Numbered from the stretch's first letter, positions 8,729 through 54,365 are shown. The stretch: DNA of 64,000 nt from Candidatus Fermentithermobacillaceae bacterium (GCA_012842495.1 DUSS01000004.1:1-64000), one strand, 5' to 3'. The notes: generated by a model from the letters alone, not told the origin. Numbers and translations are program-made.

Positions 8729-9790
8729 CTAGCTCTCCGTTCCCCGCCCGCGTTTTCTTTGCTGGAACAGCAGGTACAAAAAGAATGGCGCGCCTCCCAT
8801 CGCGGTGATCACTCCCACCGGGATTTCCGCCGGAGGAACCAGCGTCCTGGCCAGAAGGTCCGACAGCACGAGCAGAGAAGCTCCCGCCAATCCTGAGCAG
8901 GGGACCAGCCAGCGATGGGCCGGACCAATGATGAGCCGCACCGCGTGGGGAACGACGAGGCCAACGAAACCGATAGGACCTGTAAAAGCCACAGATTGAG
9001 CCGTTATCAGCGAAGCGCCGAAGAGCGCCAGGCGCTTGGATCTCTCGACATCCAGCCCGAGATGAAAGGCCGTTTCTTCACCAAAGGCGAGCACGTCCAG
9101 AGGACGCGATAGCAACCATATGAGAGTCCCGAGGACCAGTACGTACGGAAGAGAAACCCTGACCGAACTCCAGGAAGATCTGGCCAGTCCCCCCATGGTC
9201 CAAAATACGATCTCTTCCGTCCTTTGCCTGAACAGCACCATTATCAAAGCTACCCCCGACGAGATCATGCTGGACAGCGCGATTCCCGAAAGAAGCAGAG
9301 TCAACAGTTCAGTCCTTCCATGCCAGGTAGCCAGCGAGTAGACCACCACCATCGCGCAGAACGCGCCGAGAAAAGCGGGAAGCGGGAGAGCCCACGCTCC
9401 GAGAGCTCTCCCGACTCCAAACACGATACCGAGCACGGCGCCTAAAGACGCGCCTGACGACACGCCCAGAATATACGGATCGGCCATGGGGTTCCTAAAG
9501 AGCCCCTGCATTACGGCGCCGGCGATTCCGAGGAAAAACCCGACCAGTAAACCCATGAGAACCCTGGGAAGCCTCAACCGCCACAGGATTTCCCATCGGA
9601 CCTGGCTCTCGGGATCTCCGGGAACCGGTCCCTTGAAAAGGAGAGTGAAGACCTCCCGGGGAGGAACGCGGACGGCCCCCAGCCCCACCCCAAGGAAAAT
9701 CACAGCTGCCAGGCAAGCAACGAGCCCCGCCGTCACCCAGCCTTTTTTAATAGTCCCTCCAGTCCTTCCCCCGGAAAGAAGCCCGGTCAT
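8729..9790 (-). CDS. btuC: Cobalamin ABC transporter permease (BtuC/FecCD family)
   Basis: The 353-residue product has about ten membrane helices and FecCD motifs: [20 protein letters not shown] near residue 75, [19 protein letters not shown] near 100, and [20 protein letters not shown] near 280, the coupling region that contacts the ATPase. Its ATG overlaps the stop of btuF (ATGA), so the two are translationally coupled. The C-terminus is very basic ([11 protein letters not shown]). Together with btuF and btuD it forms a complete importer under riboswitch control. Confidence 0.95.
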
Positions 9791-10740
9791 TTGCCGCCCA
9801 TAGCCTCCGGATAGAGCGCCCTCGCCACTGCCTCTACGGCCTTAACGATCTCGGGCCCGGGACGGGAAATCAGGTCCGGGTCGATGAAGAAAACCCTGCC
9901 GTTCTTTACCGCTTCTAGCGATGACCATCCGGTCCTGGATTCCAAAAGATGATACGACTCTTTCGGAAACGCAATCAGGATGGCGTCGGGTGAGCGCTCA
10001 AGCAAAGTCTCCATGCTCACCTGAAGATACGGCTGGGCCGCGTCGGCCACCACGTTTAGCGCCCCCGCCCGGGTAATTACGTCGTGCACGAAAGACCCGG
10101 GCCCTACGGTCCAGAGCTCGGGGTCAATCGCGACGAAGACCGAAGCTCTTTTGGCACCAGGCGACTGCACCTCGGAGGTTATCTCGCTGAGGGAGGACCT
10201 CATGGAGTCGACGAGCCGCCGGGCTTCCCTGGACTTGCCCGTGACCTCGCCGATTCTTTCAATAAGGGAGAGCACATCATCAATCGTAGCCGGGCTTGAG
10301 ACGAACACCGGGTAACCAAGCTTTTCGATTTCCTTCACGTAAGCGGACTCGCTTGTCCCGGTCACGAACACCAGGTCCGGCTTGAGGGACACGATCTTCT
10401 CGAGGTTGAGGTTAAAGGCATCCCCCACCTTCTCTTTGCTCTTAGCTTCTTCGGGCTTATTGCAGAAATTCGTAACCCCTACTACTCTGTCGCCGAGGCC
10501 GAGCGCAAACAGGATCTCCGTATAGGCCGGAGCCAGCGAGATTATTCGTTGGGGAGTCGAAGGCAGGGTCAATGTACGACCTGCCATATCCTGGAACGTT
10601 TTTGGACCCCCACAACCCGAAAGAGCTATCGTTGACACCGAAAGCTCCAGGAGTAAAGCCAGTACCACCAACAAACCCGCAGCTTGGCCCGGTCTTATAC
10701 GAGACCGCGATGATCTTCCAGACGAAGGATTCCCTGTCAT
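9787..10740 (-). CDS. btuF: Cobalamin-binding lipoprotein (BtuF-like)
   Basis: The 317-residue product begins with an arginine-rich stretch and a hydrophobic segment ending in a lipobox (ALSG before Cys43), so it should be a membrane-anchored lipoprotein. The mature part is a class III periplasmic-binding fold ([20 protein letters not shown] near residue 62, ERIGEVTGK and [18 protein letters not shown] at the end), the BtuF/FhuD type. The ATG has a strong ribosome binding site (AAAGGAG). The 5' leader contains a cobalamin riboswitch and an intrinsic terminator, so expression should fall when B12 is plentiful. Confidence 0.93.
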
Positions 10741-10944: not shown

Positions 10945-11000
10945 GTACCTGTCCGTCACAAGCCAACCCCCCTTTCGCTCGAAGGTAAGCCAGCTGGCCA

Positions 11001-11167
11001 GGTCAAGGCAGGTCTCCTGGCTGCCAGGTCATCGCGCCTCGCCCCTTCCCGCCTTGCGGCAGTGGGACCTGCGAGGAACTCGCTGGTCACAGTGGCGGCA
11101 CCGCGCCGGCTGGACACACAGGGTGTCTCCCGGACTTCCCTATTCTCCCTTAGCGGGCACCTTGACC
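11001..11167 (-). ncRNA. Cobalamin riboswitch
   Basis: Read on the minus strand, the element contains a clear B12 box, AGCCAGGAGACCTGCC (11022-11007), and upstream conserved GGTG and GGGAA tracts (AAGGTGCCC, AATAGGGAAGTCCGGG). The closing P1 stem is visible: GGTCAAGG (11167-11160) pairs perfectly with CCTTGACC (11008-11001). It heads the btuF-btuC-btuD operon and is followed by an intrinsic terminator. From 10917 down to the btuF start I see only the ribosome binding site. On the other side, 11168-11246 holds the divergent start region for a small membrane gene. Confidence 0.93.
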
Positions 11168-11246
11168 CCGTATTCAGTTTTTCCCAGGTGTAGGAAACCC
11201 TCCTCCTTGGAATACTCCCATTGAAGCCAGGACTGGAGGCATCAAT

Positions 11247-13482: not shown

Positions 13483-14709
13483 TCAGGTACGGTGGTGTTC
13501 AGTCTCGAGGGTCACCGCGGATATCCAAGATTCGAGCAGCGAAGGCCCTTCCAGGATTATGTCGGTGACGGGAAATCCGGTACGGCTCCTTACCTCCCTT
13601 AAGAACCGGGCGGCGTCGACCTGCTCCGCCCGGTACCTCCCGGACGATTCCTGAAAAGCGGGCTTGAACGGGTTTAGGGTAAAACCCAGAAGGGTAGTAG
13701 ATTTAAGCACTGCCATTTCATGTCCCCACCCGACCAACCGGGCGATGGTCTGCGGCCAGGAAGAAGCCTGTCCGCTGACAAGGAGATTGACCGGATGATC
13801 GAAGACGAACTTAATCCGCAGCGCCGGTGACTCGTTCTCTAGAAGCCGAACGAATTCCTCGAGAGCGGAAGGGTTTACAGGACCCGGCACGCGAACAGTG
13901 AGGAGGCCTTCTGTCGCAATCCGCCGCAACAAAGCTACGCCGGTAGGAACAGAACTCCGGGTCATGAGAGCTGTCCCGAGCTCCACTTCCCAGGGGCCTT
14001 TCTGCCCCGGGACTGCTTGCACCCGTGTCCCAAAAGACCAAGCTGCCAGGCTGGAATCTCCAGAATGAGTCCGGGCCGCCCCGGAATCTAAAGGGGGCAG
14101 CGACATAACGGTTCCAATACCCGTGACCTCAGCGGCAAGAGTGGACACATCGTCGCTCCTTGCGGCGCCCGTGGCAACGATGAGATGGGTCGCCAGGCAC
14201 ATCGGCGCCATTCGGGAAAACGCGCCGTCTACCACAACGAGTTCGACCCCGGTCGCCTCCTGCAGAAACCGGACTACCTTGCCCAGGCCGCGCGTGGTCA
14301 CCGGCCCTGCCAGGACGACACGGCCGGCCTTTTTAACGCGTCCGGCGACCACCCGCCCCAGGGCGCACGTTACTCCCGTGTCGCGGACGTCGGAAAACTC
14401 GGCCCCGGTCACCCGGAATAATGGCTGAGCTGTAGCCACCACCGAACCTTCGGGCAGGAAAACCCTCGGCTTGCCGAGCCCGGTTACCGTATCGAAGTCC
14501 TCACCATCAAAACCTATGCTTGTAACGGCAAAAATCCGTTTCTCATCGCCCAAACGACGAATGACCTGGTTGAGAGCAGTCGTTTTTCCGGTGTTCTTGG
14601 CTGTACCAGCTACGCCCAGTACGACGATGGGGGCGTTGCCCCTGTCGCCCCGGTTCGGGGGCATAAACTTCTCGCTCACCGGCGCGGCCACGGGGTCCTT
14701 CCTTTTCAT
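13483..14709 (-). CDS. P-loop NTPase resembling aminomutase reactivase subunit KamB
   Basis: The 408-residue product has a P-loop GTAKNTGKTT at residues 35-44, followed by SIGFDGEDFDTVTGLGKPRV and FLPEGSVVATAQ. This resembles what I know of KamB, one of two subunits that reactivate B12-dependent lysine 5,6-aminomutase by exchanging damaged cofactor. A buried VVVDGAFSRMAPM segment near 170 and a C-terminal part with a hydrophobic GFTLNPF stretch follow. The ATG overlaps the stop of the aminomutase-like gene (ATGA). The usual MutS-like partner KamC is not in this window. Family assignment is from memory of the motif and context. Confidence 0.65.
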   Translation of the reverse strand: MKRKDPVAAPVSEKFMPPNRGDRGNAPIVVLGVAGTAKNTGKTTALNQVIRRLGDEKRIFAVTSIGFDGEDFDTVTGLGKPRVFLPEGSVVATAQPLFRVTGAEFSDVRDTGVTCALGRVVAGRVKKAGRVVLAGPVTTRGLGKVVRFLQEATGVELVVVDGAFSRMAPMCLATHLIVATGAARSDDVSTLAAEVTGIGTVMSLPPLDSGAARTHSGDSSLAAWSFGTRVQAVPGQKGPWEVELGTALMTRSSVPTGVALLRRIATEGLLTVRVPGPVNPSALEEFVRLLENESPALRIKFVFDHPVNLLVSGQASSWPQTIARLVGWGHEMAVLKSTTLLGFTLNPFKPAFQESSGRYRAEQVDAARFLREVRSRTGFPVTDIILEGPSLLESWISAVTLETEHHRT

Positions 14710-16595
14710 GACCTCTTGGTCACAGTTCCCCGCCCTGCACGCCCGGGGTAAGCTCCGTCCTCTCTCGAACCGAATACTCCCGCGTACAGAGCACCAACGA
14801 AGCTACCCGCGGCGACGGCCGACTTGAGGGTATTCAAAATATCCTCCCGGAGCTTTTTTCCAAGGGAGGCGGCACGTGGTGACGGGGTTATCTTCGTCTT
14901 TCCCAAAAACCGCAGAGCCGCGGCCACACTCTTGAGACTGTCCACCCTGGAAGCACCGGTGATCGGCCCTCCCGCATACGCTTCGTCGGATGAGGCGATC
15001 GTCACAGCTCGGGCGCCGAGACCTAGCGCGAGCGCGGCGTGAAGAGCGGTCATCGTAGAAGACTGCACCCTGTCCTGGCTTTGAGTGAGGAATCCCACGG
15101 GCGCTCCAGGCCAGATGGGAGCGTCCACGATATCTGCCAGGACCATCATCTTCGCGGCATTGAAGTCCACGTAATCTTCATCCATGATCCCGCCGATCAT
15201 GGCCTCGGGCGAATGGGCGAAAAGCGGTTGAAGGATGGGCCGTCCCCCCAGAAGGACGCCGGCGGTCATCACCACCAGCATCCCGGCGAAAGCTTTGGCC
15301 GCGGGCACTCCAGCAAGTTCTTCGTTGGTGACGACATCGTAGGGCAGACCAAACCGGGCGGCCAGCTCAAGGCACTTTACCCCATCCACGCACAGCCTCT
15401 CCGGGTCCGTCCCCGCCGCGAGGCTCCCGTAAACCATGTTCACCTTGGTCAAATCAGCTCCGGCCAGCGCAGCCAGGACCACCGTTTCGGGAGTGTTAAG
15501 ACCGCGATGGGCTCTCACCTGCCAAAGAGTCCAGGGGAGGATGGACTTCTTTATCAGGTTGAGATTCTCCAGAGTTATTACGGTACCGTCGTGCTGGTGG
15601 CTCCACGCCCCCTCGAGGAGTCCTTCTTGCCTTGCACCCCAAGAAGGATCGAAATGAACTACCCCTCTCGCTCCCCAGGACTGGGAAAGCAGGATGTGGT
15701 AGCTGTCCATCAGCGGGCAGCCGGTGCCATACTGAACGAAAACCACGCGCTCTGCCATGACATCCGCGGACGCGGGACGCACCAGGTCTTCTCCATCCCC
15801 CGCCCTTTTCTCCAGGTCAAAAAAGGTCCTCGCTTTCGATGCAGTTAGGGGCCGGGTATGCGAAACGGGCGTCCCTTCCCGGTAAAACCGGAGGATCTCG
15901 TCTCCTGTCAATCGGGCGTATTCGTCACGAAGTCTCGAAACTTCAGCCAGACGCCCCTCTGTACGCGCCTTTTCCATCTGCTCCCGGATTTCCGCTCTCA
16001 AAACGCCCGGGCTGGTCCTTTCTTTGGCCCAGTTCAAAAGCTCCCGGGCTATCTCATCGCACAGGCGACCGATCTCTTCGTCCTTGAACCTGTAGGAAAA
16101 CCCCTCGGTGAGGTCGGGCTTGGAGAGTTTTCGGCGGGCTCGAGTGCTTTGAAACTCCAGGTTTTCGACAAAGGCCACCGCGTCATCCACGGTGGTATCC
16201 GGGCCGAATCCGGCGTCGAAGCCCATCTCCTGAGCGAGCTCAGGCCTTATCGACATCCCGCCCACCGCAACCTTCATCTTGTCCCTGAGACCCGCCGTGT
16301 CCAGAAGATCGAGGAAACGGGCGAGCAGCTCCGCGGTGCCGTAACTTATCGTCCTGGATACAAGCAGGCAGTCCGGGCGGATTTCCGCCGCCTTTTGTAC
16401 TACCTCCTCCGGTGGGAGATCTGGCGGGAGAAGCACGACTTGGTGCCCCCGTTCGGAAAGGGCGCGCCTGATGAGCTTGAGCCCTACGTCGTGAACGGGA
16501 TCGAGGGGAACCATCATCACCTTCTTCGGCCCGCAAGGTCGCGCGCTCGTCGACCCATCACCCTGAACAGGTACCCCACCGACTTTTTCAGTCAC
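14706..16595 (-). CDS. B12-dependent aminomutase-like enzyme, N-terminal B12 domain fused to an OraE/KamD-like barrel
   Basis: Residues about 22-140 look like a B12-binding Rossmann domain (KKVMMVPLDPVHDVGLKLIR, VGGMSIRPEL). A helical linker follows, and residues about 280-600 resemble the catalytic barrel of ornithine 4,5- or lysine 5,6-aminomutase (VFVQYGTGCPLMDSYHILL, LWQVRAHRGLNTPETVV, SQDRVQSSTMTALHAALALG). Known OraE has the B12 domain at the C-terminus and KamE is separate, so the order here is inverted. The cobalt-ligand His is present, but the DxHxxG Asp is replaced by Pro, and the PLP lysine expected 11 residues after the His is absent. GTG at 16595 is preferred (GGGGAGG nine bases before). 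Substrate unknown. Confidence 0.7.
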   Translation of the reverse strand: MTEKVGGVPVQGDGSTSARPCGPKKVMMVPLDPVHDVGLKLIRRALSERGHQVVLLPPDLPPEEVVQKAAEIRPDCLLVSRTISYGTAELLARFLDLLDTAGLRDKMKVAVGGMSIRPELAQEMGFDAGFGPDTTVDDAVAFVENLEFQSTRARRKLSKPDLTEGFSYRFKDEEIGRLCDEIARELLNWAKERTSPGVLRAEIREQMEKARTEGRLAEVSRLRDEYARLTGDEILRFYREGTPVSHTRPLTASKARTFFDLEKRAGDGEDLVRPASADVMAERVVFVQYGTGCPLMDSYHILLSQSWGARGVVHFDPSWGARQEGLLEGAWSHQHDGTVITLENLNLIKKSILPWTLWQVRAHRGLNTPETVVLAALAGADLTKVNMVYGSLAAGTDPERLCVDGVKCLELAARFGLPYDVVTNEELAGVPAAKAFAGMLVVMTAGVLLGGRPILQPLFAHSPEAMIGGIMDEDYVDFNAAKMMVLADIVDAPIWPGAPVGFLTQSQDRVQSSTMTALHAALALGLGARAVTIASSDEAYAGGPITGASRVDSLKSVAAALRFLGKTKITPSPRAASLGKKLREDILNTLKSAVAAGSFVGALYAGVFGSREDGAYPGRAGRGTVTKRS

Positions 16596-16842
16596 CGGTT
16601 TTCGCCTCCCCGGCATCGTGCTGCCCGGTCCACGGATAATCCGAGCCCGGCCTGGAAAGATACGCCCTGAGCCTTATCCTCACGCCGGGCCCGCCTTGCT
16701 CGCAAAAGACCACATCCACATCGTCAAACCCCAGCTCTTTCATGAGCTTTAGCCCGAGCTCCACTCCTTCCTCCCTCGTGTCACATAAAAAGAACGTTTC
16801 CACGTCTAACGCGTCGAGAACACGGTCAAGAGCTTTGGGCAC
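16588..16842 (-). CDS. Small protein encoded just upstream of the aminomutase-like gene
   Basis: The product is 84 residues if the GTG at 16842 is used (GGGGG seven bases upstream); a longer frame reaches 16890 but overlaps the regulator gene more. It reads as alternating helix and strand (LDRVLDALDVETFFLC, GLKLMKELGFDDVDVVFCEQ, GVRIRLRAYLSR). Its stop overlaps the aminomutase-like start, so it may be a small subunit, as OraS is for OraE, but it does not resemble the OraS sequence as I know it. Two cysteines are present. No function is assigned. Confidence 0.6.
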   Translation of the reverse strand: MPKALDRVLDALDVETFFLCDTREEGVELGLKLMKELGFDDVDVVFCEQGGPGVRIRLRAYLSRPGSDYPWTGQHDAGEAKTGD

Positions 16843-17587
16843 CCGAATTCCCCCTGCCTTTTTCCGCATCATCCCAGTACGTCTCCACATCCCTGACCAC
16901 GTTGTCTATGTGTCTCGTCATAGCTTTCCGTGCCCCTTCAGGGTCTCCGCGCTCCACGTAATCGAGAAGCTTCCTGTGGTCCTCCACCATGCGAGAGCCT
17001 ATTTTCCTGCGGATGTACTCGAGAGCCATGCCGATGTCAGGATCGTTGTATATAACATCCAGGGCCGCAGCGAGAACCGGGTTCTTGGAAGCTCTCGCCA
17101 GGGCTCTGTGAAATGCAACGTCCTTTTCCACGCCGGACGAGCCTTCCTCCAGGAGTTTTTCGTGCGCCTCTACGATTCCCTTAAGGATCTCCAGATCCTC
17201 GGGAGTCCTCCTGGATGCAGCCAGAGCGGCGGTCTCCGACTCCACGGCCCGGCGAGCCACCAGGACGTCTACTAGCTCTTCGCGTCTCGTAAACTTCAAA
17301 CTGGATATGAACTCCTGGTGAGAGCGGACCTGAAGGAGGCGCCTGTCCCAATCCTCCAGAACCCTAACCCCTTCCTGAGTGATGGCCCGACCGTCTCTTC
17401 CCCTCCGTACCACGTGTCCGCGGGCTTCCATATCCCACAACATCCGACCCACCGTCGCCTGGGAAACATCCACCCCACGCTGTCTTAAGAGGGCCGCCAG
17501 CCTCCAGGCACCCATCGGTGCGCCCGCATCCCTCAGAACCCGCAAGCCTTCGTAATATACAGCTTCTCTCGACGAACCAGGCTCCAC
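16826..17587 (-). CDS. FCD-domain transcriptional regulator with an N-terminal winged helix
   Basis: The 253-residue product starts with a winged-helix domain (GLRVLRDAGAPMGAWRLAAL, then VSQATVGRMLWDMEARGHVV) unlike the usual GntR N-terminus, followed by an all-helical FCD ligand domain from about residue 95 (REELVDVLVARRAVESETAA). The FCD metal ligands are visible as DVAFHRAL, EDHRKLLDYV and MTRHIDNV. FCD regulators sense small carboxylates or amino acid derivatives. It lies between ridA and the aminomutase-like gene and probably controls this locus. The start is a GTG with GGAGGTG upstream. Confidence 0.85.
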   Translation of the reverse strand: MEPGSSREAVYYEGLRVLRDAGAPMGAWRLAALLRQRGVDVSQATVGRMLWDMEARGHVVRRGRDGRAITQEGVRVLEDWDRRLLQVRSHQEFISSLKFTRREELVDVLVARRAVESETAALAASRRTPEDLEILKGIVEAHEKLLEEGSSGVEKDVAFHRALARASKNPVLAAALDVIYNDPDIGMALEYIRRKIGSRMVEDHRKLLDYVERGDPEGARKAMTRHIDNVVRDVETYWDDAEKGRGNSGAQSS

Positions 17588-17646: not shown

Positions 17647-18153
17647 TCACGACGGCAACTCCCCTATGGCATAGAGAAGTTGATGTGCCGGGGGACACTT
17701 CACCGCCACTACCATCTCTACTTCTACCGGGGCCCCCAGAGGGAGTTCGGCCACACCCACGGCTGACCGGGCGTGCGCTCCCGCCGGACCGAAAGCCTCC
17801 CCGAGAAGCTCCGATGCACCGTTGATGACTTTAGGTTGGTCCCGGAACCCGGGCGCCGAGGCAACAAAGCCTGTCACTTTGATGATTTTCTTTACATTGT
17901 CCAGGTCCTCAATGACGCTCTTCAATGCCGCCAGGCAATTGATGGCGCAAATCCTGGCTGCATCGTACCCTTGTTCGAGAGTAAGTTCAGCTCCGAGTCT
18001 TCCGACGTAGCGGAGTTTTCCGTCCACGAGAGGTATTTGCCCCGAGGTAAATACCAGGAGTCCCCATTGGACCGCCGGAACGTAAGCTGCTACCGGCTTG
18101 GGGGGTTCTTTAAGCTCGATTCCCATCGCCGCCAGCTTTTCTTCCACTTTCAC
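17647..18153 (-). CDS. RidA-family (YjgF/UK114) protein
   Basis: The 168-residue product is a RidA-family protein, longer than the common 125-130 residue form and closer to the YjgF-like branch with an N-terminal extension (EEKLAAMGIELKEPPKPVAAYVPAV). Visible segments are FTSGQIPLVDGKLRYVG and RSAVGVAELPLGAPVEVEMV; the usual Arg of the active site is in HARSAVGV. RidA proteins hydrolyse reactive 2-imino acids released by PLP enzymes, which suits an amino acid catabolic locus. The start is a GTG with GGGGAGG eight bases upstream. A short palindrome lies about 40 bases before it. Confidence 0.9.
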   Translation of the reverse strand: MKVEEKLAAMGIELKEPPKPVAAYVPAVQWGLLVFTSGQIPLVDGKLRYVGRLGAELTLEQGYDAARICAINCLAALKSVIEDLDNVKKIIKVTGFVASAPGFRDQPKVINGASELLGEAFGPAGAHARSAVGVAELPLGAPVEVEMVVAVKCPPAHQLLYAIGELPS

Positions 18154-18307: not shown

Positions 18308-18838
18308 TCAGCGGAACATCACCCTCCAGACCAGGTAGCCGGTGCAAAAGCCGGCGAGATCACCGGCAAGACACGCCACCAGGGCATGCCTGCCCCGCTT
18401 TATCCCCACAGACCCAAGGTACAGGGTGACCACGTAAAAGGTGGTATCGGTTGACCCCTGGAGTATGGAAGCCAGGATGCCCACGGGCGAGTCGGGTCCT
18501 CGCGCTTTCATGATCTCGGCGGTGATCGCCAGGGCGCCCGAACCCGATATGGGTCTTGTGACCAGAAGGGGAACCACGTCGGGCGGAAACCCCAGAGGCG
18601 CGAGGATTGCTTCGAGGCAACGGGACAAAAGAGACATCGCTCCTGAAGAACGGAAGCAGCTTAGCGCCACGAATATAGCTACCAGGTACGGCAACGTGAC
18701 GAAAACCACTCTGAGTCCTTCCTCGGCGCCTCTGATGAAAGCTTCGTACACCTTAACGCCTTTGACCCATCCGTAAACGGGAATGGCCACGATGATGACG
18801 GGAAAGACGTATACCCCCAGGAGTTCAATAACCTTCAC
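18308..18838 (-). CDS. spmB: Spore maturation protein B
   Basis: The 176-residue product is a polytopic membrane protein of the SpmB/nucleoside-recognition (Gate) family, with family segments PVYGWVKGVKVYEAFIRGAE, VTRPISGSGAL and ILQGSTDTTFYVVTLYLGSV. SpmA and SpmB act together in spore core dehydration and heat resistance. The GTG at 18838 overlaps the spmA stop by four bases (GTGA); the frame is open further upstream to 18988, but that stretch lies inside spmA and is not protein-like. Confidence 0.93.
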   Translation of the reverse strand: MKVIELLGVYVFPVIIVAIPVYGWVKGVKVYEAFIRGAEEGLRVVFVTLPYLVAIFVALSCFRSSGAMSLLSRCLEAILAPLGFPPDVVPLLVTRPISGSGALAITAEIMKARGPDSPVGILASILQGSTDTTFYVVTLYLGSVGIKRGRHALVACLAGDLAGFCTGYLVWRVMFR

Positions 18839-19413
18839 TTCTGGCGCCCCCTTCGGAGGGCTATATCCACCGTGAGCCCGGCAGCGGTGGCCGCAAGCCC
18901 CGCAATGGCGGTAGGACCTGCGATTATGGCGGGATTGGCGGACCCCAGGGCAGCTCTTATCGCCACGACGGAGGAGGGAAAAATGCAAAAACCCGCAGCG
19001 TTTATGACGATCAAGGTGATCATGGGATCGATCGCCTCCTCCGCACCCGGGGGCATCAGGTTCTTCATCTCCTTCATAGCTTTGAGGCCCAGTGGCGTGC
19101 CAGAACTTAATCCAAGGACGTTCGAGATAATCGAAGCTGCTACGGCCGAAAGCGGCCGGGGACGGTCCTTTAGAGACGGAAAAACGGGCCTGAGCATAGG
19201 ACCCACAAACCTCGCCAGAGTATCCACCAGTCCGGACTCATCGGCAATCTTTTCCATGCCCATCCAAAGGCAGTAGATGCCAGCCAGTTCGATCATGAGA
19301 GCTACAGCGCCTGTCGCACCACCCAGAACGGAATCGACCATGGTGCCGACGTTTCCCGTAAAAAACGCTACGACAGCGCTGCCCACTAAAAGTCCCATCC
19401 ATAGCGAGTTCAC
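18835..19413 (-). CDS. spmA: Spore maturation protein A
   Basis: The 192-residue product matches SpmA: membrane segments at both ends and the conserved stretch GIYCLWMGMEKIADESGLVD near residue 45, plus LGLSSGTPLGLKAMKEMK and MITLIVINAAGFCIFPSS. It forms a translationally coupled pair with spmB. The start is a GTG (GTGAACTCG), with a GGAGGAG about 12 bases upstream. The two genes lie downstream of a spore protein gene and a likely terminator, so they probably have their own promoter in 19414-19485, which I could not pick out with confidence. Confidence 0.93.
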   Translation of the reverse strand: MNSLWMGLLVGSAVVAFFTGNVGTMVDSVLGGATGAVALMIELAGIYCLWMGMEKIADESGLVDTLARFVGPMLRPVFPSLKDRPRPLSAVAASIISNVLGLSSGTPLGLKAMKEMKNLMPPGAEEAIDPMITLIVINAAGFCIFPSSVVAIRAALGSANPAIIAGPTAIAGLAATAAGLTVDIALRRGRQK

Positions 19414-19912: not shown

Positions 19913-20857
19913 TCACTGGGACAGTAACCGGTCGATCTTTTGCTTTTGATACAAACACGGCTCGAACAGATCTCCCTTTTCTTCCAGTCTTTCTGGCGCC
20001 GTTTTTATGTTCCAGCAGTCGGGTTTCACGGAATCGAGTTCGTCCCAGGAGATGGGCATGGAAACGGGGGCGCCCGGACGGGCTCTTACGCTGTATACCG
20101 CGACAATGGTCTGTCCCGGCGAGTTTTGGAGGTAGTCGATGTACACTTTACCGTAGCGTTCTCCAACAGGTCTTTTCAAAGTCACTTTTTCTGGCATGGC
20201 AGTCTCGATGATTTGTGCGGCTCTTTTAACGAACAGCACGATTTGCTTGTGGCTGTATTCGTTTTTTACGGGCACGTAAACGTGAAGGCCGGTAGCCCCG
20301 GAGACCTTCGGAAAGCTCCAAAGCCCCAGTTCGTCGAGGAACGCTTTGACCGCTCTAGCCACGATCTTTACATCCTCCCAGCTCGAGCCTTCGGCGGGAT
20401 CGAGATCGAAGACTGCAAAGTCTGGTGCGGATAAATGCTCCCTGCGGGAGGACCACGGGTTCACTTCCACCACAGCTTGATTGGCCATCCACACCAAAGT
20501 GGCCGTGTCGTTGCATAGGATGTATCTGGTGGTCCGGGAGCTGCCGGACACCACGGGGACGGTTTTCACCCACCACGGAGTACCGGGAGGAGCATCTTTC
20601 TGGTAAAAACCCGGCGTCGAGATGCCGTCAGGGTACCGCACCAGCGATAAAGGCCTGTCCCGGAGATGCGGCAGGATGTAGCGGGAAACGCGGGCGTAGT
20701 ACTGGATAAGGTCCCTTTTGGTGAAGTTGTCCTCGGGCCATAGCACTTTATCGAGGTTGGTAAGGGTTACCTCCCTCGGCCCGACTCTAACTCTCACTTG
20801 ATCTTTGACCATGCCTCGCCCCTCCCGGGAAGCCATGGAAACCCCCTTCACTCTCAT
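19913..20857 (-). CDS. LigD-type NHEJ polymerase (stand-alone primase-polymerase domain)
   Basis: The 314-residue product matches the polymerase domain of LigD: TNLDKVLWPEDNFTKRDLIQ near residue 33, PGFYQKDAPPGTPWW near 88, the metal-binding pair in FAVFDLDPAEG near 150, and SGATGLHVYVP near 182. It fills in ends during non-homologous end joining, with preference for ribonucleotides in known homologues. A start at the ATG at 20812 (MVKDQVRV) is also possible. The polymerase, ligase and Ku are three separate neighbouring genes rather than a fused LigD. Confidence 0.92.
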   Translation of the reverse strand: MRVKGVSMASREGRGMVKDQVRVRVGPREVTLTNLDKVLWPEDNFTKRDLIQYYARVSRYILPHLRDRPLSLVRYPDGISTPGFYQKDAPPGTPWWVKTVPVVSGSSRTTRYILCNDTATLVWMANQAVVEVNPWSSRREHLSAPDFAVFDLDPAEGSSWEDVKIVARAVKAFLDELGLWSFPKVSGATGLHVYVPVKNEYSHKQIVLFVKRAAQIIETAMPEKVTLKRPVGERYGKVYIDYLQNSPGQTIVAVYSVRARPGAPVSMPISWDELDSVKPDCWNIKTAPERLEEKGDLFEPCLYQKQKIDRLLSQ

Positions 20858-20904
20858 CCGGTGCGCTTGAGTACGCGCTTTACCAAATGCAACGAGCTGA
20901 CCGT

Positions 20905-21873
20905 TTACCCGGCTCTCCGGTTCCCTTCTATCTGCCTGAGCACGGGATGCCGGAGCTTTCCGTCCGGCGTCATCTCGGTGAAAGACACCAGAACCCGCAC
21001 GTCCGGAACGACCCAGGTGACGTCCGCATATGTCCTTTCCCGAACCGCTTTACCGTAAGGTGTGTCCTCCCGCGGTCCTCGACCCGGCTCCCGTGACGCC
21101 CGAAACTCCTGAACGGAAAGAGGGGCTTTAACCGGCCGCAACAGTTTCAAGAGTCGTTGCTCTTCCTCTTTACCTAAACCCGACGACACCGCACCCCGGA
21201 CCACAAGCTCGTCTTGCATACTTTCGCCCACGATGATCGATCCCACGCGCGACCCCGAAGCTTTCCGATAGCCGAGAACCGTGAACCATTTTTCCTTGCC
21301 GTTCCGTATCTTCAGCCAGTACCGGGATCGTTCACCGGGCAGATATGGACTTTCCAGGAACTTCGCCATGATGCCCTCCAGGTCCCGTTCTTTTGCGATT
21401 TCGAACAAGTCCCGCCCTCTTCCCGCAACGCCTTCGGACAAAACGAGATTCCCCGAAAAGTCCAGGGCGCTCGCAAGACGCCGGCGGCGTTCTGAAAGCG
21501 GCGCCGGGGTGAAATTCGATCCATCGAGATGGAGGATGTCGAAAGCTATGTAACACAGAACCCCTTCGTGCCTCCGGAGCGCCCCGAAGTCGGGCCTGCC
21601 CCGGGCCAGCGCCACGATTTCGCCGTCTATCACCGCCGAGTTCCCCTTCAAGTGTTTCCATAGACCGAGGAGCTCGGGGAAGTACCTTCCCAGGTTCTTG
21701 CCGTTCCTCGAAAGGAGATATGCATCGCCCCCGGCACCGCTCCTGCAAAGGTAGAGGAGGCACCTGTAACCGTCCCATTTCACCTCGAAGAGCCAGGAAC
21801 TATCATCGAAGGGCTCCCCGGCAGTTTCGGCTAGCATAGGGCGGAACGCGGGCATACCCAGGATGGACTTCAC
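20905..21873 (-). CDS. ATP-dependent DNA ligase (LigD ligase-domain type)
   Basis: The 322-residue product has adenylation motif I KWDGYR with the nucleophilic Lys near residue 33, motif III-like YIAFDILHLDG near 120, motif IV EGIMAKF near 172 and motif V WLKIRN near 193, followed by an OB-fold domain. It seals breaks in the NHEJ pathway with the adjacent Ku and polymerase. The ATG sits in a four-base overlap with the ku stop. No nuclease or phosphoesterase domain is present. Confidence 0.93.
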   Translation of the reverse strand: MKSILGMPAFRPMLAETAGEPFDDSSWLFEVKWDGYRCLLYLCRSGAGGDAYLLSRNGKNLGRYFPELLGLWKHLKGNSAVIDGEIVALARGRPDFGALRRHEGVLCYIAFDILHLDGSNFTPAPLSERRRRLASALDFSGNLVLSEGVAGRGRDLFEIAKERDLEGIMAKFLESPYLPGERSRYWLKIRNGKEKWFTVLGYRKASGSRVGSIIVGESMQDELVVRGAVSSGLGKEEEQRLLKLLRPVKAPLSVQEFRASREPGRGPREDTPYGKAVRERTYADVTWVVPDVRVLVSFTEMTPDGKLRHPVLRQIEGNRRAG

Positions 21874-22685
21874 GGAGGCGCGGGGGCGCTTTCCCGAACC
21901 GTCCTACCCCGCCTCTCCTCCTTCGCTCCCGCTATACTCCGCCTGAGAGCTTCCATCAAGTCTATGACCTCCGCCGGTGCCCTTGCGGGTTCCCTCACGA
22001 CCTGCCTTCCCTGAAGCTTAGCCTGGATAAGCTCATTGATATGCCGCCGGTAAGCGGAAACGTGCTTTTCCGGCTCGAACGGCTTTTTCATCATTTTAAC
22101 CAGGGTCTTCGCCATTTCTTTCTCTTCGTGCGCTACCGCCACCCCTGTGGGGATCTCGAGGCTCTCGGCGCTTCGGACCTCATCAGCCCAGTACATGGTC
22201 TCAAGCGCTAGGACCTTATCCTGGTAGGGACGGACGAGGGCCAGCGTCTCCCGGGATCTCAAAGCTACCCTGGCTACGGCAACCGTGCGCAATTCCGTCA
22301 TCGCCCCAAGCAAAAGAAAATACGCTCGAGCTGAACCCTCCTGAGGTTCGAGGAAGAAAGCATCCCGAAAGAAGACGGGATCGACTTCGGAGATGTCGCA
22401 AAACTCCATTATCGTGATGGAATGAGGTTCGGGTTCAGGCAGCTTGCTCAAATCTTCGTCGGTCAAGAGTACGTATTGCCCTTTTTCGTATTCGACACCC
22501 CGGACTATTTCCTCGGGCATGACCTCCCGGTTACAGGTGGGACACCACTTCAAGTAGCGGATGGGCGTGTTGCATTCGACGTGAAGCAAATGAAAAGATG
22601 GGGTCTTGTCCTCGGTTGCTTTATATATCCTCACGGGTATCACGACAAGCCCGAAACCAAGGACCCCTTTCCACAGCGGCCTCAT
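21870..22685 (-). CDS. ku: Ku protein, NHEJ end-binding
   Basis: The 271-residue product is a bacterial Ku: MRPLWKGVLGFGLVVIPVRI at the N-terminus, FHLLHVECNTPIRYLKWCPTC near residue 32, YEKGQYVLLTDEDL near 66. The beta-barrel core ends around 210, and a basic/acidic C-terminal tail (GAKEERRGRTVRESAPAP) may recruit the ligase. It binds double-strand ends as a homodimer and heads the ku-ligase-polymerase cluster. Placement next to spore genes suggests repair during germination, as known for Bacillus Ku/LigD. Confidence 0.95.
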   Translation of the reverse strand: MRPLWKGVLGFGLVVIPVRIYKATEDKTPSFHLLHVECNTPIRYLKWCPTCNREVMPEEIVRGVEYEKGQYVLLTDEDLSKLPEPEPHSITIMEFCDISEVDPVFFRDAFFLEPQEGSARAYFLLLGAMTELRTVAVARVALRSRETLALVRPYQDKVLALETMYWADEVRSAESLEIPTGVAVAHEEKEMAKTLVKMMKKPFEPEKHVSAYRRHINELIQAKLQGRQVVREPARAPAEVIDLMEALRRSIAGAKEERRGRTVRESAPAPP

Positions 22686-53834: not shown

Positions 53835-53869
53835 TTTTCGGACCCGTTTTCGCTTCCCCTGCGAGGCAG

Positions 53870-54359
53870 CGGCGGCAGTAAATCTTGTGGCTTAAGGTCC
53901 GGCAGGCTTTCCCGGAAGCTTACCCGGGCTCGCGCTCCGGGCGGTTCCCCTTTAAAAGCTTCCCCGGCGGGTCACCCGCGCCGGCGCCGGATCACCACTT
54001 AGTCCACACCGCAATCCCGCCGCCGCCCCTATCGAGGACAGTCTAGGAGATTTCCTCAAGGGCCTCGCTCTTAGCCTCTTTTGCAGCCGGGCTTTCCGGA
54101 TGAGCCTTCCCACCCGGCCACTCAAGGCAGCTATCCCGGAACACCGGGTACAAGCCCCAGGGCGCCTTGCGCCCCGCGAAGAGAGGGTCCACGCCCACAT
54201 GCCGTTGTGGATCGCCCTCTCCTCCTTGCTCCTGCCAGCCGACCCGAAGCTGGGCGCATCGAGCCCGCTGGAGGCGGGAGGGCATAGCTTCGACGGATTT
54301 TTAGGCCCGCCCTCAGAGCGAATCGCCCACTAGAATACTGCACCTCGCAGGCGAATTCA
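53870..54359 (-). ncRNA. Candidate OLE RNA (ornate large extremophilic RNA)
   Basis: About 650 bases (53835-54489) lack any convincing gene in a window where gaps are usually below 200. On the minus strand the stretch is GC-rich with many short hairpins, for example GGGCGC-AAG-GCGCCC at 54174-54160 and CCCGG-TGTT-CCGGG at 54148-54135. A TATACT extended -10 lies just upstream and the OapA-like gene follows directly. OLE RNA, about 600 bases, occurs at this ispA-dxs location in extremophilic Firmicutes. I cannot confirm the consensus without a covariance search; ends are approximate. Confidence 0.6.
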
Positions 54360-54365
54360 TGCATG

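Follow-up and report, generated by a model that had tools for sequence, protein, structure and literature searches.

A stretch of 64,000 nucleotides from Candidatus Fermentithermobacillaceae bacterium (GCA_012842495.1 DUSS01000004.1:1-64000; hereafter the window) carries an open reading frame that a sequence-only reading took for a B12-dependent enzyme, built like the ornithine and lysine aminomutases but with its domains in inverted order and without the lysine that binds PLP. The locus thus raises the question of whether such a protein belongs with the aminomutases that use both B12 and PLP, and, if it does, whether it still binds PLP. The mutase-like frame is real and lies on the minus strand, in a cassette of three genes:

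16588-16890 (-): S subunit, a small open reading frame of 100 aa; a stand-alone dimerisation (OAM_dimer) domain
14706-16616 (-): E subunit, fusion open reading frame P0001, 636 aa; B12 Rossmann domain, OraS-like helical segment and KamD-like TIM barrel
16152-16529 (-): B12-binding domain of E, residues about 30-155
15912-16085 (-): OraS-like or KamD N-terminal helical segment of E, with a TSPGVxR motif; hhalign to OraS E 6.5e-5, also to the KamD N-terminus
14709-15770 (-): TIM barrel of E, residues about 283-636
13483-14709 (-): KamB-like P-loop reactivase/chaperone, P0003, 408 aa (NF052386)

The S/E cassette and its modules

The three frames overlap, S and E by 29 nt and E and the KamB-like gene by 4 nt. 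Full-length homologues of E, at about 49-66% identity, occur in 39 of 399 sampled genomes of the phylum and span some 20 families (labels as given by the search tool); the named relatives are Candidatus Fermentithermobacillaceae. A contig scan using a single E protein retrieved close relatives only, and no full-length homologue was present in the plasmid records searched. Neighbourhoods of up to 20 kb were extracted for 40 loci and four named loci, which with the window gives 45. The order B12 domain, OraS-like segment, barrel is identical in all 45; a profile search placed the S gene directly upstream of E in 44, and the KamB-like gene is next to E in 40 and nearby in 43. Recurrence of the fusion order and of co-linearity in 45 loci means that the arrangement is neither an assembly error nor a product of chance. 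An N-terminal B12 domain fused to an aminomutase-like barrel, the reverse of OraE, is therefore a property of the whole family, unlike ordinary OraE.

The Pfam B12-binding match covers residues 37-147 (PF02310, E 5e-15), and the closest curated or solved relatives of this domain are KamE (5,6-LAM beta) and, among others, the C-terminus of OraE. Outside the B12 domain no Pfam model reaches its cut-off in E, and a HMMER search of the PDB with a barrel-only profile gave no matches; the kinship of the barrel with KamD is visible only by hhalign against KamD of the same and related genomes, and by structure search. The hhalign alignment runs over 419 columns and takes in KamD nearly end to end (E 4e-6, probability 87%), compared with E 3e-3 for OraE and E 0.035 for the glutamate mutase GlmE; control alignments with five unrelated operon proteins gave probabilities of at most 3%. 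The AlphaFold2 model of E (pLDDT 83.6, pTM 0.81) has 5,6-LAM alpha (KamD) as its best PDB fold (Foldseek, E 1e-14, TM 0.62 by target), followed by OraE and then GlmE. Judged by profile alignment and predicted structure, the barrel is a distant homologue of KamD, and the better match to some other mutase family that would have overturned the original reading did not appear. E is not a member of either neighbouring family: it scores 38.9 bits against NF040743 (OraE, cut-off 800 bits), through the B12 domain only, and its matches to the GlmE barrel family (TIGR01503/PF06368) are isolated and weak.

The small gene that precedes E had been described as unknown. It does precede E, but its kind can be identified: the AF2 model of S (pLDDT 79.7) finds the dimerisation domains of KamE and OraE as top PDB folds (E 0.016-0.06, rmsd ~1.5 Å), hhalign aligns S with KamE at E 6e-6, and sub-threshold Pfam OAM_dimer matches are present in 18 of 28 S-family members. 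The possibility that S is the counterpart of OraS was ruled out, since model and hhalign point to the dimerisation domain instead. The KamB-like gene that had been seen to follow E matches NCBIfam reactivase_KamB (NF052386) at E 1.6e-52 and 178.6 bits, below the 210-bit equivalog cut-off; on this profile evidence P0003 is a KamB homologue over nearly its whole length, and not an equivalog. The KamB that the genome encodes elsewhere matches the new KamB-like profile at E 1e-51, and the cassette thus has a paralogous reactivase of its own.

In KamDE (1xrs) one chain holds the OraS-like segment and barrel and the other the dimerisation and B12 domains; in OraSE (3kow) OraS stands alone and the second chain comprises barrel, dimerisation domain and B12 domain. 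In S/E the dimerisation domain stands alone and is partnered by B12 domain, OraS-like segment and barrel. S/E is a third permutation of the modules common to both, and of this homology and architecture we are nearly certain. Literature searches (DUF6917, OAM dimerization domain, KamB reactivase, leucine 2,3-aminomutase, uncharacterised AdoCbl mutases) returned no description of the E family, which, so far as sequence relationships can tell, is an undescribed family of B12 enzymes akin to the lysine and ornithine aminomutases of bacteria. Whether E might be the orphan leucine 2,3-aminomutase was also considered; nothing in the analysis supports this.

The cobalt-ligand motif and the loss of the PLP pocket

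The residues on which the question of PLP turns are these:

16482-16502 (-): DPVHDVG motif with the predicted cobalt ligand His42; DPVHDxG invariant in 45/45
16458-16460 (-): Leu53, where KamE and OraE have their PLP lysine (KamE Lys144, OraE Lys629)
15630-15650 (-): DPSWGAR loop (323-329), replacing the KamD PLP-phosphate loop RTTGQS; contains invariant columns
15504-15506 (-): Arg371, replacing KamD Ser238 (PLP pyridine N); Arg in 45/45
15429-15446 (-): K391 to Y396, invariant barrel Lys and retained Tyr263 equivalent

Eleven residues after the cobalt His, where a Leu had been noticed at the position of the PLP lysine, all 45 relatives have Leu. The lysine-bearing loop of the B12 domain is deleted in the E profile alignment (hhalign), and in no relative is the lysine restored.

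The PLP contacts of 5,6-LAM are Lys144, Arg184, Gly187, Gln188, Ser189, Tyr236, Ser238, Tyr263, Arg268 and Asn299, with high conservation in OAM as well (PMC3958899). As a reference we took 16 KamD and 15 OraE sequences encoded by the searched genomes (Lys144 was not tabulated). Eight ligands, R184, G187, Q188, S189, Y236, S238, R268 and N299, are conserved in these 31 sequences, the one exception being Ala for Gly187 in two KamD; the same eight are observed to be replaced or deleted in every one of the 45 E-family members. Not one of R184, S189, S238, R268 and N299 is kept in any member, compared with all five in 16 of 16 KamD. Throughout the family Arg184 has become Asp323, Tyr236 has become Ala369, Arg268 is Ala or Gly, and Asn299 falls in a gap. 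Gly187-Gln188-Ser189 also falls in a gap (or on W326-G327-A328, in an ungapped alignment made by eye); mapping of the phosphate loop is alignment-dependent and passes through residues modelled with low confidence (325-329). The stacking residue Tyr263, present as Tyr396, is the sole KamD PLP-site residue retained. Because eight ligands are replaced or deleted and only this tyrosine is left, binding of PLP in the manner of 5,6-LAM and OAM is unlikely.

The case for PLP loss is therefore stronger than first stated, since the whole pocket is missing and not the lysine alone. One point weakens it: the barrel contains three invariant lysines (K391, K441 and K489), and binding of PLP by K391, which lies at the end of a predicted barrel strand, is not excluded. 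The missing pocket and lysine, as read from the alignments, are the main evidence against the known PLP mode without proving that PLP is absent, an absence that we nonetheless infer to be probable. The original proposal, that PLP is either bound elsewhere or not used and that the substrate may be new, survives the tests made; the chemistry is undemonstrated.

If PLP is bound elsewhere, then E could still be a PLP- and AdoCbl-dependent aminomutase with a rebuilt site in the barrel: Lys391 would form the aldimine, Tyr396 would stack, and Arg371 would sit at the pyridine nitrogen, which in alanine racemase is contacted by an Arg. By this analogy, and given the retention of Tyr396 and the invariance of K391 and R371, a remodelled site is conceivable. 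We consider it unlikely, however: the side-chain ligands of the phosphate (R184, S189 and R268) are all lost, the first to an Asp, the Lys144 loop is deleted, and none of the relatives has an intermediate site.

Doubtful too is a carbon-skeleton mutase of the glutamate mutase kind, diverged on the KamD scaffold and acting on an amino or dicarboxylic acid. Glutamate mutase has the same fold and no PLP, GlmE follows KamD and OraE among the PDB matches, one E-family member matches Met_asp_mut_E at E 9.5e-4, and the two invariant barrel Arg could bind carboxylates. Yet the profile match to GlmE is weak beside that to KamD, and the operon has no recognisable methylaspartase or mutase-S gene.

The cobalt-ligand motif bears on whether E is a radical enzyme at all. 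In D39-P40-V41-H42-D43-V44-G45 every residue except V44 is invariant in 45 of 45 relatives; compared with DxHxxG, His and Gly are retained, while Asp is replaced by Pro and an Asp stands one residue earlier, just as had been claimed. The missing Asp is unusual for an AdoCbl mutase and weighs against reading E as one. The form PVHDIG resembles the HDIG found in the corrinoid proteins of methyltransferases, second in score to KamE for the B12 domain, and E might thus be envisaged as a corrinoid methyltransferase or as some other B12 protein without radical chemistry. The methyltransferase cap domain is absent, though, and the KamD barrel, dimerisation subunit and KamB-like reactivase suit AdoCbl mutases, which leaves this explanation very improbable. 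That E is a degenerate or regulatory, non-catalytic paralogue supporting KamDE or OraSE, both of which the same genome encodes, is scarcely tenable given more than 120 invariant columns (polar barrel residues among them), a reactivase and operon of its own, and its presence in genomes without KamD.

On balance, we lean towards S/E being a third branch of the B12-dependent aminomutase superfamily, an AdoCbl radical mutase without bound PLP that acts in an undescribed catabolic pathway.

Partner genes and a possible pathway

In the window two further genes adjoin the cassette:

16826-17587 (-): GntR/FadR-type (FCD) regulator; operon-conserved, cluster 4 in 35/45 loci
17647-18153 (-): RidA-like imine deaminase; operon-conserved

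Most loci have the cassette in a series of genes resembling an operon, together with DUF6917, RidA, a 488-aa PLP enzyme distantly related to SelA, DgaE and gamma-family enzymes, a flavoprotein and the FadR/GntR regulator; a transporter, identified by eye, is part of the series at 17. At the window locus only regulator and RidA are adjacent, and the PLP enzyme and DUF6917 are paired on contig 52 of the same genome. The PLP enzyme and DUF6917 are each present in 40 of the 399 genomes, in both cases all 39 genomes with E and one other (G050 and G388). The hypergeometric probability of this co-occurrence is 2e-53 with genomes treated as independent, a figure that is overstated because the sampled genomes are related. 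Since the co-occurrence spans some 20 families and holds where the genes are unlinked, the simplest explanation is that E, the PLP enzyme and DUF6917 serve one pathway. No paper on DUF6917 was found in the literature searched. Motif spacing had raised the possibility that DUF6917 is a relative of OrtA; hhalign with a single OrtA sequence gave no support.

Several further observations concern these neighbourhoods. On contig 52 the pair of PLP enzyme and DUF6917 is immediately followed downstream by a creatininase-family gene (by eye; L166, 6563-7399), which might be a clue to the substrate. At L168 and L169 (G258, contigs 34 and 11) and L170-L171 (G282) the PLP enzyme and DUF6917 occur as diverged copies with no mutase; by eye, their neighbours are RidA, short-chain dehydrogenases, a TPP enzyme and carboxylate/ABC transporters. 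Upstream of RidA, Fermentithermobacillaceae loci encode SpmA/SpmB-like Gate-domain membrane proteins (18308-18988 and 18835-19413, both (-)), which possibly replace the transporter of other lineages. An ABC ATPase cluster is found within eight genes of the cassette at 13 of 45 loci. No cobalamin riboswitch was found ahead of the cassette; the one in the window (10990-11179, (-)), 2.3 kb downstream of the KamB-like gene, precedes a BtuF-like ABC substrate-binding gene (9787-10740, by eye). Adjoining the locus are an apparent Ku and a split LigD, with polymerase and ligase as separate open reading frames (19913-22685, (-); non-homologous end-joining, read from translations). The window also contains an OLE RNA (Ornate Large Extremophilic RNA; 53847-54362, (-)) as a full-length Rfam match of 306 bits.

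For the S/E mutase we propose the following scheme, in which binding and use of AdoCbl, radical chemistry and a catabolic role are inferred, without biochemical data. S and E would form a KamDE/OraSE-like enzyme in which His42 holds AdoCbl and the cofactor is carried over the barrel; homolysis of the Co-C bond would yield a 5'-deoxyadenosyl radical that abstracts hydrogen from a small substrate. The invariant polar residues at the barrel strand ends include two Arg, two His and several acids, and the substrate, probably amino- or carboxyl-bearing, may be held by barrel residues, candidates being Q295, Y296, H321, D323, R368, H370, R371, K391, Y396, N431, E432, E433, D544 and E545. Rearrangement or elimination would then run without bound PLP, and cobalamin that had been damaged would be exchanged by the KamB-like protein. 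The data are compatible with a carbon-skeleton rearrangement, an amino shift or an elimination. E would serve a catabolic pathway together with the SelA/DgaE-like PLP enzyme, DUF6917, the flavoprotein and RidA; flavin oxidation, hydrolysis of an imine by RidA and PLP-dependent cleavage may be later steps, but their order is a guess by analogy with the ornithine pathway (mutase, dehydrogenase, PLP thiolase), and the substrate is likewise a matter of guesswork.

S/E is probably the marker of a radical-based pathway, so far unknown, in bacteria that live by fermentation. That it co-occurs so strictly with DUF6917 and an undescribed PLP enzyme suggests an unmapped catabolic route in about 10% of the phylum's sampled genomes. 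We are evenly divided on whether it represents a new class of AdoCbl radical enzyme, in which PLP was lost from a PLP/B12 aminomutase scaffold and which carries out the key step of an undescribed amino-compound fermentation as one of an obligate trio with the SelA-like PLP enzyme and DUF6917.

Relation to known aminomutase systems

The sequence-only reading held that kdd and ort genes are absent. This is true of the 64-kb window, in which tblastn found no homologues of Kdd, KamA, KamC, OrtA, OrtB or Ord, but not of the genome, where KamE-KamD-KamC-KamB-KamA-Kdd lie on contig 70 and OraE-OraS-OrtB-OrtA-Ord on contig 26 (KamD, KamE, OraE and KamB identified by HMM, the other genes by position and by eye). 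Because both sets are encoded separately, the S/E cassette is a third system in this genome; judged by gene set only, it does not meet the kam/kdd criterion for lysine 5,6-aminomutase. Matches to PF09043 (the KamD/OraE barrel) are absent from 19 of 40 genomes searched, which shows the S/E system to be independent of KamD/OraE. The literature searched names two aminomutase families that use PLP and B12; S/E would add a third branch with reordered modules and no PLP pocket, and comparison with such natural homologues makes the contribution of PLP to B12 radical rearrangements testable.

With lysine 5,6-aminomutase (KamD/KamE; PDB 1xrs, 8t0v, 9q1a) S/E has in common the barrel, the N-terminal helical region, the KamE-type B12 domain, the dimerisation domain and a KamB-type reactivase. 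It differs in that the B12 domain is fused ahead of the barrel and the dimerisation domain is separate, as S; the PLP lysine, PLP ligands and KamC/Kdd partners are missing, and DPVH replaces DxH. D-ornithine 4,5-aminomutase (OraS/OraE; PDB 3kow-3kp1) shares the modules, the TSP motif of OraS and a similar C-terminal barrel segment, whereas in E the domain order is reversed, the OraS segment is internal, the small subunit is the dimerisation domain, and there is no Lys629, no PLP ligands and no OrtAB/Ord. Glutamate mutase (GlmE/MutS) offers the likeness of an AdoCbl mutase barrel that functions without PLP and has an Arg-rich active site, although profile similarity is weak (E 0.035) and the subunit make-up differs.
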